From positions 1 to 20,178 of IMG/VR virus record IMGVR_UViG_3300046090_000022: DNA of 20,178 nucleotides, one strand, 5' to 3'. The stretch is from a virus. Below are positions 536 to 20,152 of this stretch, piece after piece. The first letter of the stretch is position 1. The number at the start of each line of letters is the position of its first letter. The notes under the pieces are model-generated. The model did no database searches. It worked only from the letters and a program-made list of their open reading frames with translations, and was not told the DNA's origin. The position numbers and the translations under genes are program-made.

Positions 536-2928
536 TATATTTCAGATTTTCCTGTAATCATTTGAGACCATCCTAATAGTTGCATATCTTTACCTGTCTC
601 AGAAGAAATCTTTAAACTTAATACTTTACCAGAACCACGAAGTTTATTTTTAGTAACAATAACAGCATCACCATAATCAAATGTATCACCAGCACCAGAA
701 GGAGTATAGTTACGATTTAGTCTATAAGCTTGGAAAGGATTTCCCCATTTACCACTATTAGCGCTATTAGTCCAATTCCATTGTGCTTGTACAATACAAC
801 CAGAAGGATTATCTAATTGTAGTGTATCTCCTACAGCAGTAAAACCATTCTCTGTACGATTAAAATAGAATTGGATATAAGGTACTTGTTTATCTCTCAT
901 AATATCACCGGCATATTCATAGCCAGTAACAAGATAGCTAGAAAAATCTACCCCAGTTCCATTCTCTGTTACCCAATCTTTAAATCCTGTATTACTTAAG
1001 GCCCCTATAGTAAATGATCCGCCTTTCATTACTAGGTATCGAAAAGTTTCTACTCTAGGTGTTGAATTACTTAATGTAATTATAGCTTGGTCTGTACCTA
1101 CAAGAATATTATCAATATTAGCAGATAAGGTTAGATCTACGTTTTGTAATGAATATCCCGGAATCTTAATAAAATCACAGATTCGTGGGAGAGTCTGTTC
1201 TGTTACATCTAAGCTACTAAAACTAAATTTAGAAAAAGCTTTTAGAGACAAATCCATATTCAATTGTTTATTATATGTATTTATATAATTAGTCTCTGAA
1301 TAATTAGGATCATCACTATAGAGCCATTGTACCACATTACGAGCTTCATTATAGAAACCTCTAGCATTAGTACGGGCTACTTGTGATATATTATTATAGT
1401 AAGACTGTATTGTAGTAAGTGTAGCATTTTGTGCAATTAGTCTACCGGAATTTTGGTCAGTTGTTAAATAATGAATGCCTGTTTTAGCCCAATAGAAGAT
1501 AGTACCACCAGCATTTACAATAGAATCTGGACTACTTACTCCAACAGTTGTAACTTTACTTACTTGAAAAGCTGTAGCATTAAATCCTTGATTAACTCCT
1601 TCACCACCTAATTCCCAAATACCATTTTCAGCAAAGATAATTAATGATTCACGATTAGTCATTAACTTAACTATTCTATTTGCTTCTGGGATATGGATTG
1701 TGCCTCCATCAGTAGGTAATAGATCACTTATTTCCGCAGAAGTAGGATCATTTTCTTGATAGCACATCCCCAACTTTTCAATTGATTTTGCTATTTGAGA
1801 AAAAAATACATACCCAGAATAATTGGGAGATACTAAATCCCCGTCTGAAATTTGTGATACAATACCAGAGTAGAAGATACGTCCGGCAAAGGACTCTACA
1901 GCACTAACTCTACCCATTTCAGCATCCATAGGTAAAGCTGGACGGTATAATGTGATCTGAACTCTTCCCGGAATTGGTGTTACAGCGGTATTAACTATAC
2001 CTGTATGACGAGTTCTACTAGCACCTCTTGAATATATGTTTAATAAAACCGCCCCTTTAGGAGCAAGTGTATTTTCAATAGAATTCTTTTTTAGTGTTGC
2101 TGGATCATATGTCTGATAATTAGCAGCAGCAGGATTACCTATTTTTCCTAATGACCATATATCAGAATTACTTGGGTAAACACCAAGTACAGATTTAGTA
2201 CAATCAATAGCTGTATTTGTGGTATTTGCTGCAATATAACCAACATTTTTTCTACCAATAGGGAGAGATAAGGTAGTAGTTATATCTACAGAAGTAGCAC
2301 AAGTAGATGGTATTTTTGAACTCCATCCTTGGTTAATTAAATTATATTTATGAAGGGGAGATAAAATTACAGGTCTAGAATCATTGGTAAGATAATCATC
2401 TACCCCTTCAAAATCTCGTACTACTATTGCTGTTGCCTCCTGTGTTATAGTGTCTAGAGAAGAATCATAAGTTAATATTACAGGTAGATCTAACTCTTCT
2501 GAGACTAAAACAAAGAAGTTATTGACTATAGCTGTCTGAATACGAGATGTAGTCAGTCCAGTTATAGTAATAGCATTACCCCCATTCATTAAATGAGCAC
2601 TTGGGTTTGCTTCCAATAGATTAATAAAATATAACTTATTATAGGCACGAATTACTCCAAGTACAATATCAGTAGAGCCACCGGGAAATGCCCAAGTAGT
2701 AATGGAGTATCTACTTAAGTTTAAAGTTCCGGGGAGTATTCCTGTACTATTGTATTGATGTCCTACTTCATAATCAACTCCAAGTCTACGACTACGGCTA
2801 CCACTTAACTCTAATATAAAATTATCTTCATCTATAGAAGAGTTTTCTGGGAACGTGAGGGCGCTGGCCTCAGTAATTAGACCTTTAACAAAAGAGTTTA
2901 CCTGTTTTTCGGATACAACTTTAGACAT
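535..2928 (-). CDS. Tail nozzle protein, T7 gp12-like (tail tubular protein B)
   Basis: A 797-residue protein, close to the roughly 790 residues of T7 gp12. The N-terminus (residues about 14-60) has the family pattern: a helix, then KGLITEASALTFPENSS, then LELSGSRSRRLGVDYE, seen in nozzle proteins of many podoviruses. The rest is rich in beta strands with frequent Asn, Thr and Gly, as expected for the beta-propeller and platform domains. Nozzle proteins form the hexameric tip of the short tail, below the adaptor, and carry fibre contacts. The ATG at 2928 has the site AAGGAACAAG just upstream, and the gene follows the adaptor with one small gene between, the usual order. Product identity rests on N-terminal pattern, length and synteny. 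Confidence 0.85.
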   Translation of the reverse strand: MSKVVSEKQVNSFVKGLITEASALTFPENSSIDEDNFILELSGSRSRRLGVDYEVGHQYNSTGILPGTLNLSRYSITTWAFPGGSTDIVLGVIRAYNKLYFINLLEANPSAHLMNGGNAITITGLTTSRIQTAIVNNFFVLVSEELDLPVILTYDSSLDTITQEATAIVVRDFEGVDDYLTNDSRPVILSPLHKYNLINQGWSSKIPSTCATSVDITTTLSLPIGRKNVGYIAANTTNTAIDCTKSVLGVYPSNSDIWSLGKIGNPAAANYQTYDPATLKKNSIENTLAPKGAVLLNIYSRGASRTRHTGIVNTAVTPIPGRVQITLYRPALPMDAEMGRVSAVESFAGRIFYSGIVSQISDGDLVSPNYSGYVFFSQIAKSIEKLGMCYQENDPTSAEISDLLPTDGGTIHIPEANRIVKLMTNRESLIIFAENGIWELGGEGVNQGFNATAFQVSKVTTVGVSSPDSIVNAGGTIFYWAKTGIHYLTTDQNSGRLIAQNATLTTIQSYYNNISQVARTNARGFYNEARNVVQWLYSDDPNYSETNYINTYNKQLNMDLSLKAFSKFSFSSLDVTEQTLPRICDFIKIPGYSLQNVDLTLSANIDNILVGTDQAIITLSNSTPRVETFRYLVMKGGSFTIGALSNTGFKDWVTENGTGVDFSSYLVTGYEYAGDIMRDKQVPYIQFYFNRTENGFTAVGDTLQLDNPSGCIVQAQWNWTNSANSGKWGNPFQAYRLNRNYTPSGAGDTFDYGDAVIVTKNKLRGSGKVLSLKISSETGKDMQLLGWSQMITGKSEI

Positions 2929-3118: not shown

Positions 3119-3174
3119 TTTTTTGGTTTTCTTTCAGATTTAGACTGTTTATTTTGATCTTTATCAGTTGACAT
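3115..3174 (-). CDS. 19-codon upstream frame ending at an A7 run
   Basis: Starts at the ATG ending at 3174, which overlaps the adaptor stop (TAATG) and has a strong site, GGGAGGAAATA, directly before it. It encodes a Lys/Ser-rich peptide (MSTDKDQNKQSKSERKPKK) and stops at TGA. The last codons read CCA AAA AAA TGA, so the form A AAA AAA, in the right phase for -1 slippage, is followed at once by the stop. A -1 shift enters the 59-residue frame without interruption. The strong ribosome site makes this the true start of the locus. It is either a programmed frameshift, a gene broken by a one-base indel, or a leader cistron. Confidence 0.65.
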   Translation of the reverse strand: MSTDKDQNKQSKSERKPKK

Positions 3175-3923
3175 TATTTCCTCCCAAAATTAGGGTATGT
3201 AACACCTCTATTTAGTTTCCATGCTTCCTGACTCATTCTATTTCTCTGTGATTTAGCATTAACTTCTACTTTAGGATTAAGAGCTTGTTTCAAAATACTA
3301 AAAGCATTTGATTTAGCTTCAGCCAAAAGATAAGAGAATTGCTGTACAGGTAAGTCTGGAATAAATGTATCACTTATAGTGAAAGAAGTACTACGTCTAC
3401 CCCAACCACTAGACTTACTTGCTTGTATAGTAGTGTCTATAGTAGAATCAAAAGAGTCTAAAATAATATAACTATCATCAAAAGAAGTGTAATATTGAGG
3501 AGCTTTATCATTTAAAATGTTAAGGGTTACAGTGCTAAAATCAGAGACCACTTGAATATTAGAAGCACTAGAGTCTCGTGCATCTACCATTCTTAGGAAC
3601 TCTTGTGGATCTTTAAATTTAATATCTGTGAACTTATTCTTAGTATCTGAAAGACTACGAGTATTATACTTAAGCCATTCAACATTAACAATAGTAGTTG
3701 GAATCTTTAAGTAGTTAGGTTTAGATATAGAACCTAGAGCCTCAAATTGAAATAGCTCATATAAATGGGGGTAATGTTTTCCATCAACCATAAGATTATA
3801 TGTTGTCTTTACAATCTGAGCCACTTGTTCTGCTTCAACTGTATCATTAATACTATTGACTGGATCAGAATCCAAGTCATTTAATATGTCTTGTACAATT
3901 TCTAATAAAGTCATAGATGACAT
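3174..3923 (-). CDS. Head-tail adaptor, T7 gp11-like (tail tubular protein A)
   Basis: A 249-residue protein with the architecture of podovirus adaptors. An N-terminal helical segment (residues 4-47, MTLLEIVQDILNDL then a long helix) is followed by a beta-rich middle. The C-terminal helix from about 200 contains LPVQQFSYLLAEAKSNAF, then KQALNPKVEVNAKSQRNRM, the most recognisable part of the family. T7 gp11 forms a dodecameric ring below the portal and joins it to the nozzle. The gene order adaptor-nozzle-gp13-gp14 matches T7. The ATG at 3923 has only a weak ribosome site, so translation may depend on the gene before it, from which it is separated by 3 bases. A second in-frame ATG at 3914 is possible. 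Confidence 0.8.
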   Translation of the reverse strand: MSSMTLLEIVQDILNDLDSDPVNSINDTVEAEQVAQIVKTTYNLMVDGKHYPHLYELFQFEALGSISKPNYLKIPTTIVNVEWLKYNTRSLSDTKNKFTDIKFKDPQEFLRMVDARDSSASNIQVVSDFSTVTLNILNDKAPQYYTSFDDSYIILDSFDSTIDTTIQASKSSGWGRRSTSFTISDTFIPDLPVQQFSYLLAEAKSNAFSILKQALNPKVEVNAKSQRNRMSQEAWKLNRGVTYPNFGRK

Positions 3924-3926
3924 AAA

Positions 3927-4478
3927 TTATACCGCTTGAAGGTTAAATCCTGCTTCAACAGGAGTTATTGTGGAGTTAATACTACTTTTAGCATAGATAG
4001 ATATTACTTGTCCGGCTGTTAGTGCAGCTATACCAAATGACCCAGCATTTAGTCTATCAACACCAGCAGTAAGTTTCTGCACGGAAATACTACGAGTAGA
4101 AATAACTCCATCTATAGCATAATAAAAGGTATATAATGTTCCTGCTGCTACGGCGTCTGTATTGAATGAACACCAAAAGTCAACAGAATACTTATCTGTT
4201 TGGGTAATAGTAAAAGTACCATCTGCTGCATTTAATGTAATATTAGCTGATTCTCCAGCTACCCAAGTGGCTCCGGGATCTATCCTAGCTGCTGTAGCTG
4301 TTAATGCTTGGGCCGTAACTGCCCCAGTCATATACAACTCCCCATACTTAGACAAATACTTCCAAGAACCACTTCCCAAACCATCAGTAATATAGACCTG
4401 ACCGTTTAGGGCTGTAGAAACACCTTTACTCTCATGTAAATAAGCTTCCGGTATTGCTGCATGTTGAATATTTGCCAT
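3927..4478 (-). CDS. Head fibre/decoration-like protein with jelly-roll type C-terminus
   Basis: A 183-residue protein. Residues 5-40 contain PEAYLHESKGVSTALNGQVYITDGLGSGSWK, a pattern (LHExKGVxTA...Y.xDGxGSGSW) that recurs in small podovirus head fibre or capsid-associated proteins, apparently as an attachment segment. From about residue 70 the sequence is beta-rich with alternating hydrophobics (for example FTITQTDKYSVDFWCSF), as in C1q/TNF-like trimer domains. It sits immediately after the 72-residue fibre-type gene and before the adaptor, so a trimeric surface appendage on the capsid is the best reading. The ATG at 4478 is 3 bases after the previous stop. Family assignment is from memory of sequence pattern, not a search. 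Confidence 0.6.
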   Translation of the reverse strand: MANIQHAAIPEAYLHESKGVSTALNGQVYITDGLGSGSWKYLSKYGELYMTGAVTAQALTATAARIDPGATWVAGESANITLNAADGTFTITQTDKYSVDFWCSFNTDAVAAGTLYTFYYAIDGVISTRSISVQKLTAGVDRLNAGSFGIAALTAGQVISIYAKSSINSTITPVEAGFNLQAV

Positions 4479-4726: not shown

Positions 4727-4759
4727 AAAAATGGGATAGGAGCGAAACCCCTACCCCAT
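4727..4759 (-). terminator. Rho-independent terminator after the capsid genes
   Basis: On the minus strand a 12-bp stem pairs 4748-4759 with 4731-4742 around the loop TTTCG, then runs into TTTTAATTT. Two of the pairs are G-U on the minus strand and would be A-C mismatches on the plus strand, so the hairpin works in the leftward direction. It lies 28 bases past the decoration-like gene and before the head fibre genes, closing the unit that begins at the 7306-7334 promoter. Confidence 0.85.
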
Positions 4760-4786
4760 TCAAGGACTAACTATTTATTTATATTA

Positions 4787-5317
4787 TTAAGCTGCTTTTA
4801 GTGCATAAGATACAAGCAAGCGAGCCTTACCTACTGTGGGTACTGTACCTGTGTACAAGACACGGATAACAGCAGCAGCAGCAGAAGCACCCAGACCTGC
4901 AGTACCAGTAACTAAGAGAGCACCAGCACCTACCAGACGATCACCAATAGCATCAATAGCAGCCAAGGCAGAGCCAGCAGCAGTTATCAAACCATCAGCA
5001 TCTTGTGCAGTAGTACCATCAGCAGCATTATATGTACCAATAGTCAGAGCAGTAAGAGCATCAAAAGCTGTTTCTACAATTACGTTAGCAGACAAGAATA
5101 CTGCACCAGCCGGAATTACTACATCCAAGCCATTCTTAGCCCAAGCAGCAGCAGCCATACCATTAGAAGCACCACCTGCACCCGATGTGGGTGCTTGGAA
5201 TTCAACTGAAAGGAATCTAACTACTTCATCGCTTTGTTCAGCACCATAAGCAGAGTTAGTTGTGCGTACACCATAAGAATTCAGTACGCCACGTTTAGAA
5301 TCAAGTTCAAAAGCCAT
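4787..5317 (-). CDS. Capsid decoration/head-associated protein
   Basis: A 176-residue, very Ala/Gly/Thr-rich protein with few charged residues after residue 30. The centre alternates small and hydrophobic residues (VVIPAGAVFLSANVIVETAFDAL) as in beta-sandwich capsid accessory proteins, and it ends in a strand, ARLLVSYALKAA. It follows the major capsid gene by 18 bases and has one of the best ribosome sites of the window (AAAGGAG), so it should be made in large amounts. A rho-independent terminator follows directly. Such a position and expression level fit a decoration or cement protein. It could also be the base of the head fibre made by the next two genes. Confidence 0.6.
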   Translation of the reverse strand: MAFELDSKRGVLNSYGVRTTNSAYGAEQSDEVVRFLSVEFQAPTSGAGGASNGMAAAAWAKNGLDVVIPAGAVFLSANVIVETAFDALTALTIGTYNAADGTTAQDADGLITAAGSALAAIDAIGDRLVGAGALLVTGTAGLGASAAAAVIRVLYTGTVPTVGKARLLVSYALKAA

Positions 5318-18357: not shown

Positions 18358-18701
18358 ACATGTTCTAACTCATGTGACAGATCGTATAATATTGTATAAC
18401 GATCTGGAACGATTTATTCCTTTTCAATATCCCATAATTTCTGGTAGATTTTATTTAGGTGTAATGCACTATATAAAATAGTGTATAACCCCCCTTATAC
18501 CCCATAAGAATATTATTATATTAATATATTCTTATATTCTTATGACCATATCTATATTAGTATATTCTAATATTATTGTTTAATTATAACCACACCATAT
18601 CTATGACTATATTCTTATATACTTATAATCAATACATTCAACCAGTTACTATATATATCTAACTCAACTAACTTATCCATTATACTAATACTTAATAGTA
18701 T
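18358..18701. repeat. AT-rich block with several perfect dyads; candidate origin/control region
   Basis: No gene is seen here. The block is visibly the most AT-rich part of the window and holds dyads with these arms: 18358-18362/18371-18375 (ACATG), 18378-18385/18399-18406 (CAGATCGT), 18467-18472/18478-18483 (CACTAT), 18494-18498/18504-18508 (CTTAT), 18504-18513/18526-18535 (ATAAGAATAT, 10 bp), 18554-18560/18567-18573 (ATATTAG) and 18682-18687/18696-18701 (ATACTA). ACCATATCTAT occurs twice (18545 and 18594). A C6 run at 18489-18494 stands out. It lies between diverging transcripts. An origin, a regulator site cluster or simple AT-rich spacer are all possible. Confidence 0.45.
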
Positions 18702-18753: not shown

Positions 18754-18792
18754 TGATATAATCTTACATTTATTTATCGCTTTGTGTATAAT
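18754..18792 (+). promoter_or_regulatory. Rightward promoter candidates
   Basis: CTTACA (18763-18768), an 18-base spacer and a perfect TATAAT (18787-18792) form a plausible sigma-70 promoter. A second -10 with an extended element, TGATATAAT, lies at 18754-18762 but lacks a good -35. Either would transcribe the 34-codon frame, the following gene-free stretch and the gene at 19613. Confidence 0.6.
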
Positions 18793-18831: not shown

Positions 18832-18936
18832 ATGTTTTTTCTTACTACTGATAATATATTCTATACCATTGATGAATACATGATGTTGAATAAAAGTGTA
18901 ATGGGTGAGTTTGTATATTGTTCTTTAATATATTAG
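18832..18936 (+). CDS. Possible 34-residue leader peptide
   Basis: ATG at 18832, preceded by AAAGGA about 10 bases upstream and by a promoter about 40 bases upstream. It encodes MFFLTTDNIFYTIDEYMMLN and 14 more residues, ending at TAG. The peptide has a mildly hydrophobic, Tyr/Phe/Met-rich composition without a clear membrane segment. No family is recognised. It is the only short frame between promoter and the gene-free stretch with both a start and a ribosome site. It could be a small early protein or a leader frame. Confidence 0.4.
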   Translation: MFFLTTDNIFYTIDEYMMLNKSVMGEFVYCSLIY

Positions 18937-19129
18937 TTGGTCGGTCATTGTTTTAAAGTAGAGCTTGCAAAATTATGTACATTGTGCTAAAGTGTGCATA
19001 ATCCTGACAAGTTCAGGGAATTGAACAAAGTAATAATAGAATGACTGCAAAGCTAATGTTGTGGGCGTGGGTGCGGTTAAGTGTTAGATAATACTATACT
19101 AAGTTATTATAACCCGAAGGTATTAATGC

Positions 19130-19158
19130 TTGACGAAGAATTGAATTTGTGAGATAAT
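19130..19158 (+). promoter_or_regulatory. Possible second rightward promoter
   Basis: TTGACG (19130-19135), a 17-base spacer and GATAAT (19153-19158): five of six matches in each hexamer with ideal spacing. It lies inside the gene-free stretch, about 455 bases before the gene at 19613. It overlaps one of the predicted RNA hairpins (19127-19133/19159-19165), so the similarity to a promoter may be a by-product. Confidence 0.35.
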
Positions 19159-19396
19159 GCAAGCGTAATAAATGAATTGATGTTGTGAATACTACACATA
19201 AACAAAGTAATATATTCTTTCCCGTGATGCGAAGATAACATTTAATGCAGGGTTATGGGGTACTAGTAAGTACCAACTAACCAAAGTAATATGATCTATA
19301 TGGTCTAATTGCTTGCAAGTTATCAAAACTAATACAGAATAAATAATCTAAGGGTTATCTGTATATGGTCACAAGCTAGGGCAAAGAAGGCAGATA

Positions 19397-19420
19397 ATAC
19401 TGGCAGTATGTAATACATAC
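19397..19420. repeat. Overlapping perfect palindromes
   Basis: ATACTG-G-CAGTAT (19397-19409) is a perfect 13-base dyad around a single G. It overlaps GTATGT-AAT-ACATAC (19406-19420), also perfect. Such paired dyads can be operator sites or RNA hairpins. Only one of the two could form at a time as an RNA hairpin. Confidence 0.5.
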
Positions 19421-19443
19421 CTAAGAACCACGCGACGAAAAGA

Positions 19444-19517
19444 TATATTCTAGTATCTAAAGCTAACAAGCTATGATGCATGACAATAGAATATACTTGA
19501 TGAGTGAGAAGTATATT
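19444..19517 (+). promoter_or_regulatory. Two mutually exclusive 9-bp stems before the rightward gene
   Basis: TATATTCTA (19444-19452) pairs perfectly with 19487-19495. AATATACTT (19490-19498) pairs perfectly with AAGTATATT (19509-19517). The two stems share 19490-19495 and cannot coexist, a layout seen in RNA switches. Neither is followed by a U-tract. The stretch ends about 95 bases before the next gene. Confidence 0.4.
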
Positions 19518-19612
19518 AAAAGAGTCGGTCACGCCTCATATATAGTATATTTCTTACTGGGCATATTATGTATGCTTTAAATTAATAACCTTTAAGAAAG
19601 AGAGACAATAAA

Positions 19613-20152
19613 ATGATTAACGATAAACAATTCAATAACACAATTAAGAACATCAAAAAAGGTAGCGAAGAATTAGCTCAAGCTATCCATGAAGCGGGTG
19701 TATTTGCCATTGCACAAGCTAACTTACACGGTAATGACGGCTTCGCACAACGCCTCATTGAGGCAATGGGTAAAAAACACGACACTCAACGTGTAGCTAC
19801 TTGGCTCATGAAGTTTGGCAAGTTGGGTATTAAACAGGGTGTTATGGTATTTCGTAAACGTGTAGATATTACACCAGAAAATGCACAAGTATTTATTGAT
19901 AATGCAGAAGCTACCCCATATTGGGAATTAACACCACAACCACAACTTAAAATGACGGTTGATTATCTTGCACTATTGCAAGGTATTGTTAAGCGTCATA
20001 CTACAGCCGAAGAAAGCCGTAAAGAAGGAAAAGAGGTTACAGAGCTGCATCCCGAAGTATTGTATTCTATTAAAGAGTTATTGAAGAAAATTGGCACAAC
20101 TGATATACTAGCAAAGAACGAAGCGGGTAAACCTGAAATGGTATCAGCTTAG
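19613..20152 (+). CDS. First rightward (probably early) phage protein, unknown
   Basis: A 179-residue, basic, mostly helical protein. Residues 1-60 (KQFNNTIKNIKKGSEELAQAIHEAGVFAIAQANLHGNDGFAQRLIEAM) have a pattern I associate with early-region proteins of many phages: a helix, then a helix ending A-x-x-x-H-G-(N/D)-x-x-x-x-x-x-L. Residues 60-85 continue with RVATWLMKFGKLGIKQGVMVF, a strand-like stretch and a motif WELTPQPQLK (104-113), then a C-terminal helix (LHPEVLYSIKELLKKIG). The role is unknown; DNA binding is a guess from basic charge. The ribosome site is AAGAAAGAGAGA before the ATG at 19613. The codons look better ordered than the flanking AT-rich DNA. AAAGGATTAATTAGATA after its stop suggests another gene starts just beyond the window. 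Confidence 0.75.
   Translation: MINDKQFNNTIKNIKKGSEELAQAIHEAGVFAIAQANLHGNDGFAQRLIEAMGKKHDTQRVATWLMKFGKLGIKQGVMVFRKRVDITPENAQVFIDNAEATPYWELTPQPQLKMTVDYLALLQGIVKRHTTAEESRKEGKEVTELHPEVLYSIKELLKKIGTTDILAKNEAGKPEMVSA

Follow-up and report, generated by a model that had tools for sequence, protein, structure and literature searches.

By comparative evidence, the gene-free stretch at positions 18937-19612 is a large structured RNA of the plus strand, non-coding and with a conserved fold. The window, i.e. the whole stretch of DNA that was analysed, is a podovirus record of 20,178 bases in which terminase, portal-type connector, capsid and tail genes lie on the minus strand. The sequence-only reading had proposed a large structured plus-strand phage RNA at this place, and this core claim is now supported by covariation. 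Since the fold covaries in related phages, no reading frame is conserved and no Rfam model matches, the RNA appears to belong to a new family. This large phage RNA is probably made early, and by the favoured reading it would serve as a free scaffold or decoy, not as a message.

Locus and relatives

Late and early genes diverge at the RNA locus, which heads the early-gene side, and all six related podoviruses have it at this place. The gene-free stretch is bordered by a plus-strand ORF (18832-18936) and a plus-strand gene (19613-20152). The product of the latter, a 179-aa protein of family phrog_1448, has a predicted fold of low confidence (mean pLDDT 63.6), and a profile search against solved structures gave only marginal gpW matches (E 0.02), which were not used. 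No tRNA was found in the window. The features are as follows.

18763..18792, plus strand: sigma-70-like promoter CTTACA-N18-TATAAT, 5' of the small upstream gene
18832..18936, plus strand: small upstream gene, 34 aa, MFFLTTDNIFYTI...; in L002 a comparable ORF directly precedes the RNA
18965..18993, plus strand: weak sigma-70-like promoter TTGCAA-N17-TAAAGT, read from the sequence, absent from the consensus scan
19000..19590, plus strand: large structured RNA, about 590 bases, start approximate; position and structure kept in L001, L002, L003, L005 and L017
19003..19017, plus strand: 5' hairpin CCTGA-CAAG-TTCAGG
19199..19229, plus strand: conserved segment TAAACAAAG ... CCCGTGATG; TAACAAMG-N13/14-CCCGYRA in L001, L003, L005 and L017
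19259..19274, plus strand: hairpin GGTACT-AGTA-AGTACC; of GTGA/TCAC type in relatives, with a conserved CTAAC after it
19332-19337 with 19359-19364, plus strand: hairpin ATACAG/CTGTAT, compared by eye
19367..19403, plus strand: conserved core GGYCACAASCTAGGG...ATACTGGC, in which no helix is supported
19406..19420, plus strand: hairpin GTATGT-AAT-ACATAC; TAAYA top constant, stem changing
19440..19498, plus strand: long arm; outer helix 19440-19452/19487-19498, conserved bulge GACAAT
19453-19457/19475-19479 and 19461-19463/19470-19472, plus strand: inner helices of the long arm
19505..19556, plus strand: 13-bp hairpin (19505-19517 with 19544-19556)
19559..19587, plus strand: 3' pseudoknot; stem 1 19559-19563/19573-19577, stem 2 19564-19568/19583-19587
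19594..19604, plus strand: Shine-Dalgarno-like AAGAAAGAGAG, directly 3' of the RNA
19613..20152, plus strand: 179-aa gene, family phrog_1448

With the 179-aa protein as probe, the contigs L001, L002, L003, L005 (complete phage MW202697), L016 and L017 were obtained, and further probing with phrog_1448 proteins beyond L016 and L017 gave no more contigs. The terminases of the relatives are 74-86% identical to that of the window; therefore, these phages form one group. Each relative has a gene-poor stretch of similar length at the matching place. Nucleotide similarity within it is good only for L001 and L002, and blastn of the window against L003 or L005 gave no match in the gene-free stretch. 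Full members of the RNA number six (the window, L001, L002, L003, L005 and L017), all from the one phage group. Viral contigs and genome contigs were scanned with DNA patterns; these scans returned only contigs already known, so the family appears to be rare in these collections. In L016, the TAAYA hairpin and the TAACAAAG motif are kept and the 3' model is unmatched; at 4728-4830 of this contig, two copies of GAATCGAGCGCAAGCCATTC, both in hairpins, replace the usual 3' domain.

Two further elements were seen in this phage group. Another conserved element outside genes, consisting of TTTCTATTAGATTTTATTTNGGTGTARTGCA and then CCCCCCTTATACCCC or a similar sequence, is located upstream of the late operon in those relatives that were read (window ~18436-18505; L001 2660-2725; L003 2785-2860; L005 3905-3975) and is perhaps a late promoter or origin. 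The sequence GTCGGTCAY is present in 2-8 copies per genome, nearly all on the early-gene strand, partly intergenic and partly within genes (window 18940-18948 and 19524-19532; L001 3092, 3466 and 4679), and its positions inside the RNA differ.

Structure and conservation of the RNA

The plus strand of the stretch folds better than dinucleotide shuffles (z -3.3) and the minus strand does not (z -0.7), as expected for the plus-strand structure that had been read from the letters. However, neighbouring coding sequence, taken as a control, scores the same (z -3.2); the z-score alone is therefore weak evidence, and the structure is settled by covariation.

For the 3' domain (19426-19590, 165 bases), a covariance model was built from the window, L001 and L002 only, in two versions, with and without base pairs, and 121,683 bases were searched. 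The structured version matched L017 (54.8 bits, E 3.6e-10), L005 (54.2 bits, E 4.9e-10) and L003 (36.4 bits, E 5.1e-6); each of these matches is at the syntenic place. Five relatives have one match per genome. The sequence-only version found L005 weakly (23.8 bits) and missed L017 and L003. In the alignment of the six sequences, for which the helices were drawn after inspection of all six and the alignment was fitted to the model, so that the figures have some built-in lean though the margin is large, 96.2% of 211 cells pair and both-sided changes occur in 24 of 36 pairs. The covariation score is 0.717; shuffles give 0.277, and slid controls, in which 40-50% of cells pair, give no more than 0.157. 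None of 500 shuffles reached any of the five measures used. Covariation among relatives, which had been proposed as the check on the stems, is thus strong. A long secondary structure is backed by it strongly in the 3' 165 bases and partially elsewhere, the alignment of the middle and 5' parts having been made by eye and being partly supported. A model of the middle domain was left out, as the aligner shifted a stem.

The five helices of the 3' domain have pair counts, and the pseudoknot stem and the TAAYA hairpin are backed by anchored tests, in which flanking or loop letters, and not complementarity, defined the arms; an arm-swap count was set aside since its arms had been picked for complementarity. 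In the long arm, the three helices show both-sided changes in 19 of 20 pairs among the six genomes. The 13-bp hairpin has all of its cells paired (100%), with both-sided changes in five pairs and two invariant G-U pairs, and at its top the window alone carries an extra piece with GTCGGTCAC. For stem 2 of the pseudoknot, the 7 bases after GGGCAA were set against the 7 before AACC/AATC: all seven pair in each of L001, L002, L003, L005 and L017, and no two of these five share the same sequence. The window has no GGGCAA anchor, and its stem 2 is of 5 bp only, placed by eye. Around the TAAYA top, all five flanking pairs form in the window, L001, L005, L017 and L016, each of which has its own stem sequence; of 124 such sites in the window as a whole, 3 have five flanking pairs.

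The structured RNA of the sequence-only reading stands as a whole; several of the stems named in it turned out to be wrong or specific to one genome. The proposed stem 19354-19398 (TTATCTG/CAGATAA) is not kept in L001 and L002, and it conflicts with the hairpin 19332-19337/19359-19364, whose partners change together in relatives (ATCAATT/AATTGAT in L001, ATTAG/CTAAT in L017). No counterpart in relatives was found for the branched unit described at 18962-19054, which partly overlaps the possible -35/-10 at 18965-18993; only its second hairpin (19003-19017, CCTGA..TCAGG) recurs in L001 and L002. The motif AACAAAGTAATA, reported at three places, is exact at ~19024 and ~19201 and occurs as AACCAAAGTAATA at ~19281.

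Two explanations that dispense with an RNA can be weighed on these data. Inverted repeats at a divergent late/early junction with promoter-like motifs nearby could belong to a DNA element such as a promoter, origin or packaging site, yet stems that change while their loops stay constant, and a pseudoknot, would not be expected of DNA sites. Moreover, G-U is kept as a pair in 24 of the 211 cells of the 3' domain, two columns being G-U in all six genomes, and 203 cells pair when read as plus RNA as against 182 when read as minus RNA; the use of G-U pairs to assign the strand is therefore borne out across relatives, and a DNA element is very improbable. That the stretch holds unrecognised small protein genes is suggested by the record of MW202697, which annotates four hypothetical ORFs over its copy of the RNA. 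However, the window has no plus-strand ORF of at least 40 aa in 18937-19612 (the longest has 35 aa), in line with the lack of a gene noted from the sequence. In most members the longest plus ORFs are short, and their places do not correspond between members; no reading frame is conserved across relatives, and 13 of 15 indels between the window and L001 have lengths that are not divisible by three. Therefore, the four ORFs are probably spurious, small protein genes are extremely unlikely, and the stretch is non-coding, as befits a large structured phage RNA.

Expression signals

The pattern TGGCAYR-N4-TTGCW, which we take to be that of sigma-54, occurs exactly once in each of L001, L002, L003, L005 and L017, upstream of the RNA and on the same strand, and its reversed form, used as a control, has no match in these five relatives. 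No sigma-54-like motif was found near the RNA in the window. Counterparts of the weak sigma-70-like site of the window lie at the RNA start in L001 (TTGACA-N17-TTTAAT, 3167-3195) and L005 (TTGACA-N17-TAGTAT, 4319-4347); in the region of the CTTACA-N18-TATAAT site, the number of sigma-70-like sites is not above chance. The sigma-54 motif of L002 and L017 is followed by small ORFs before the RNA begins, so that the RNA would be internal to the transcript in these genomes.

Known families and possible role

Rfam release 15 (4227 models) was scanned against the window, the stretch alone and eleven related loci. The whole-window scan gave nothing for the stretch; the stretch alone, at E up to 10, gave only chance matches to eukaryotic small RNAs far below threshold, and nothing was found in the RNA of the relatives. 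No credible match to GOLLD, ROOL or other large RNAs thus appeared in the window or in relatives. On the one feature compared, a covariance-model match, membership fails for GOLLD and ROOL (window and relatives) and for OLE. Elsewhere in the window, inside a tail gene (2311-2413, minus strand), there is a sub-threshold match to the caiA RNA (30.4 bits, cut-off 55.5), probably by chance. The literature covered, a part of the papers, holds no description of this RNA.

The likeness to GOLLD and ROOL, which had been offered as a comparison and not as an identification, holds in kind. GOLLD is likewise large, phage-linked and rich in helices with pseudoknots. It is tied to late infection, whereas the RNA described here, which is shorter and has no tRNA in its window, probably belongs to the early-gene side. 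ROOL has a similar length of about 600 bases and is often linked to phages or mobile elements. OLE is also a large ornate RNA, found inside an operon; it is bacterial and has known protein partners. The pRNA of phi29, another phage-encoded structured RNA, is part of the packaging motor and much shorter, and it too gave no Rfam match here. Recent structures show GOLLD and ROOL to be RNA-only cages (PMC12286853). The GOLLD cage is homo-oligomeric, and that of ROOL is octameric.

Gene-free stretches also precede phrog_1448 in other phages. In annotated Autographiviridae they measure about 0.3-1.6 kb in the majority of the loci that were read and are absent in two; the same RNA was considered there and is not claimed, since neither RNA model gave a credible match to these stretches and folding scores were mixed. 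In the Pseudomonas putida phages L010, L026 and L027, a gene-free stretch of about 400 bases before phrog_1448 is nearly identical between phages, with varying flanks and one compensatory stem change (GCAAGC/GCTTGC to GCAAGG/CCTTGC), and may be another structured RNA; that of L010 folds no better than shuffles. In the Brevundimonas phage Babayka (L014), the gene-free stretch 2080-2960 before phrog_1448 has strong plus-strand folding (z -4.5).

It is also conceivable, with considerable doubt, that the RNA is a cis-acting 5' or intercistronic leader, in which the folded RNA, with a pseudoknot right before the Shine-Dalgarno sequence, would control how the early mRNA is translated or processed or how stable it is; the phrog_1448 protein might sense this RNA. 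What speaks most for a leader is that in all six genomes the pseudoknot at the 3' end of the RNA lies 16-23 bases before a start codon that is preceded by a Shine-Dalgarno-like run, although such spacing would be expected from any compact genome. In the window, a scan of the interval from the RNA to the gene gave no terminator-like site, and phrog_1448 follows directly in four of six genomes; however, in L001 and L002 the next gene is a 57-aa ORF. The frequent gap before phrog_1448 in Autographiviridae also points this way, but it is the usual genome-end leader, which neither RNA model credibly matches. About 590 bases of conserved fold are far beyond what a leader requires, and, to our knowledge, the size and complexity of the RNA exceed those of known cis-regulators. 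An autonomous RNA is therefore favoured, since the fold is long and elaborate, since small ORFs separate the sigma-54 motif from the RNA in L002 and L017, and since the next gene differs in L001 and L002. That it is GOLLD, ROOL or another described large RNA, diverged beyond the reach of the models, would agree with its size class, phage location, many helices and pseudoknot (PMC12286853); with no such match for the stretch alone even at E up to 10, and none in relatives, this is most improbable.

The most likely scheme for the autonomous RNA is that host RNA polymerase makes it early, within the rightward transcript, from a promoter of sigma-54 and/or sigma-70 type. The RNA would fold by itself into a compact body, would be released from the early mRNA or tolerated within it, and would act as a free scaffold or decoy and not as a message, trans action being the least certain step. 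More tentatively, it may stand for an undescribed class of ornate phage RNAs that act early in trans and have a host sigma-54 promoter in most members; RNA-only assembly or a decoy against host defence would be examples of such roles.

Few RNAs of this size keep an elaborate fold, GOLLD, ROOL and OLE being the standard examples. Since the public complete genome MW202697 carries one member, relatives can be followed up, and an unrelated further family in podoviruses would provide an independent case for testing the role of such RNAs.
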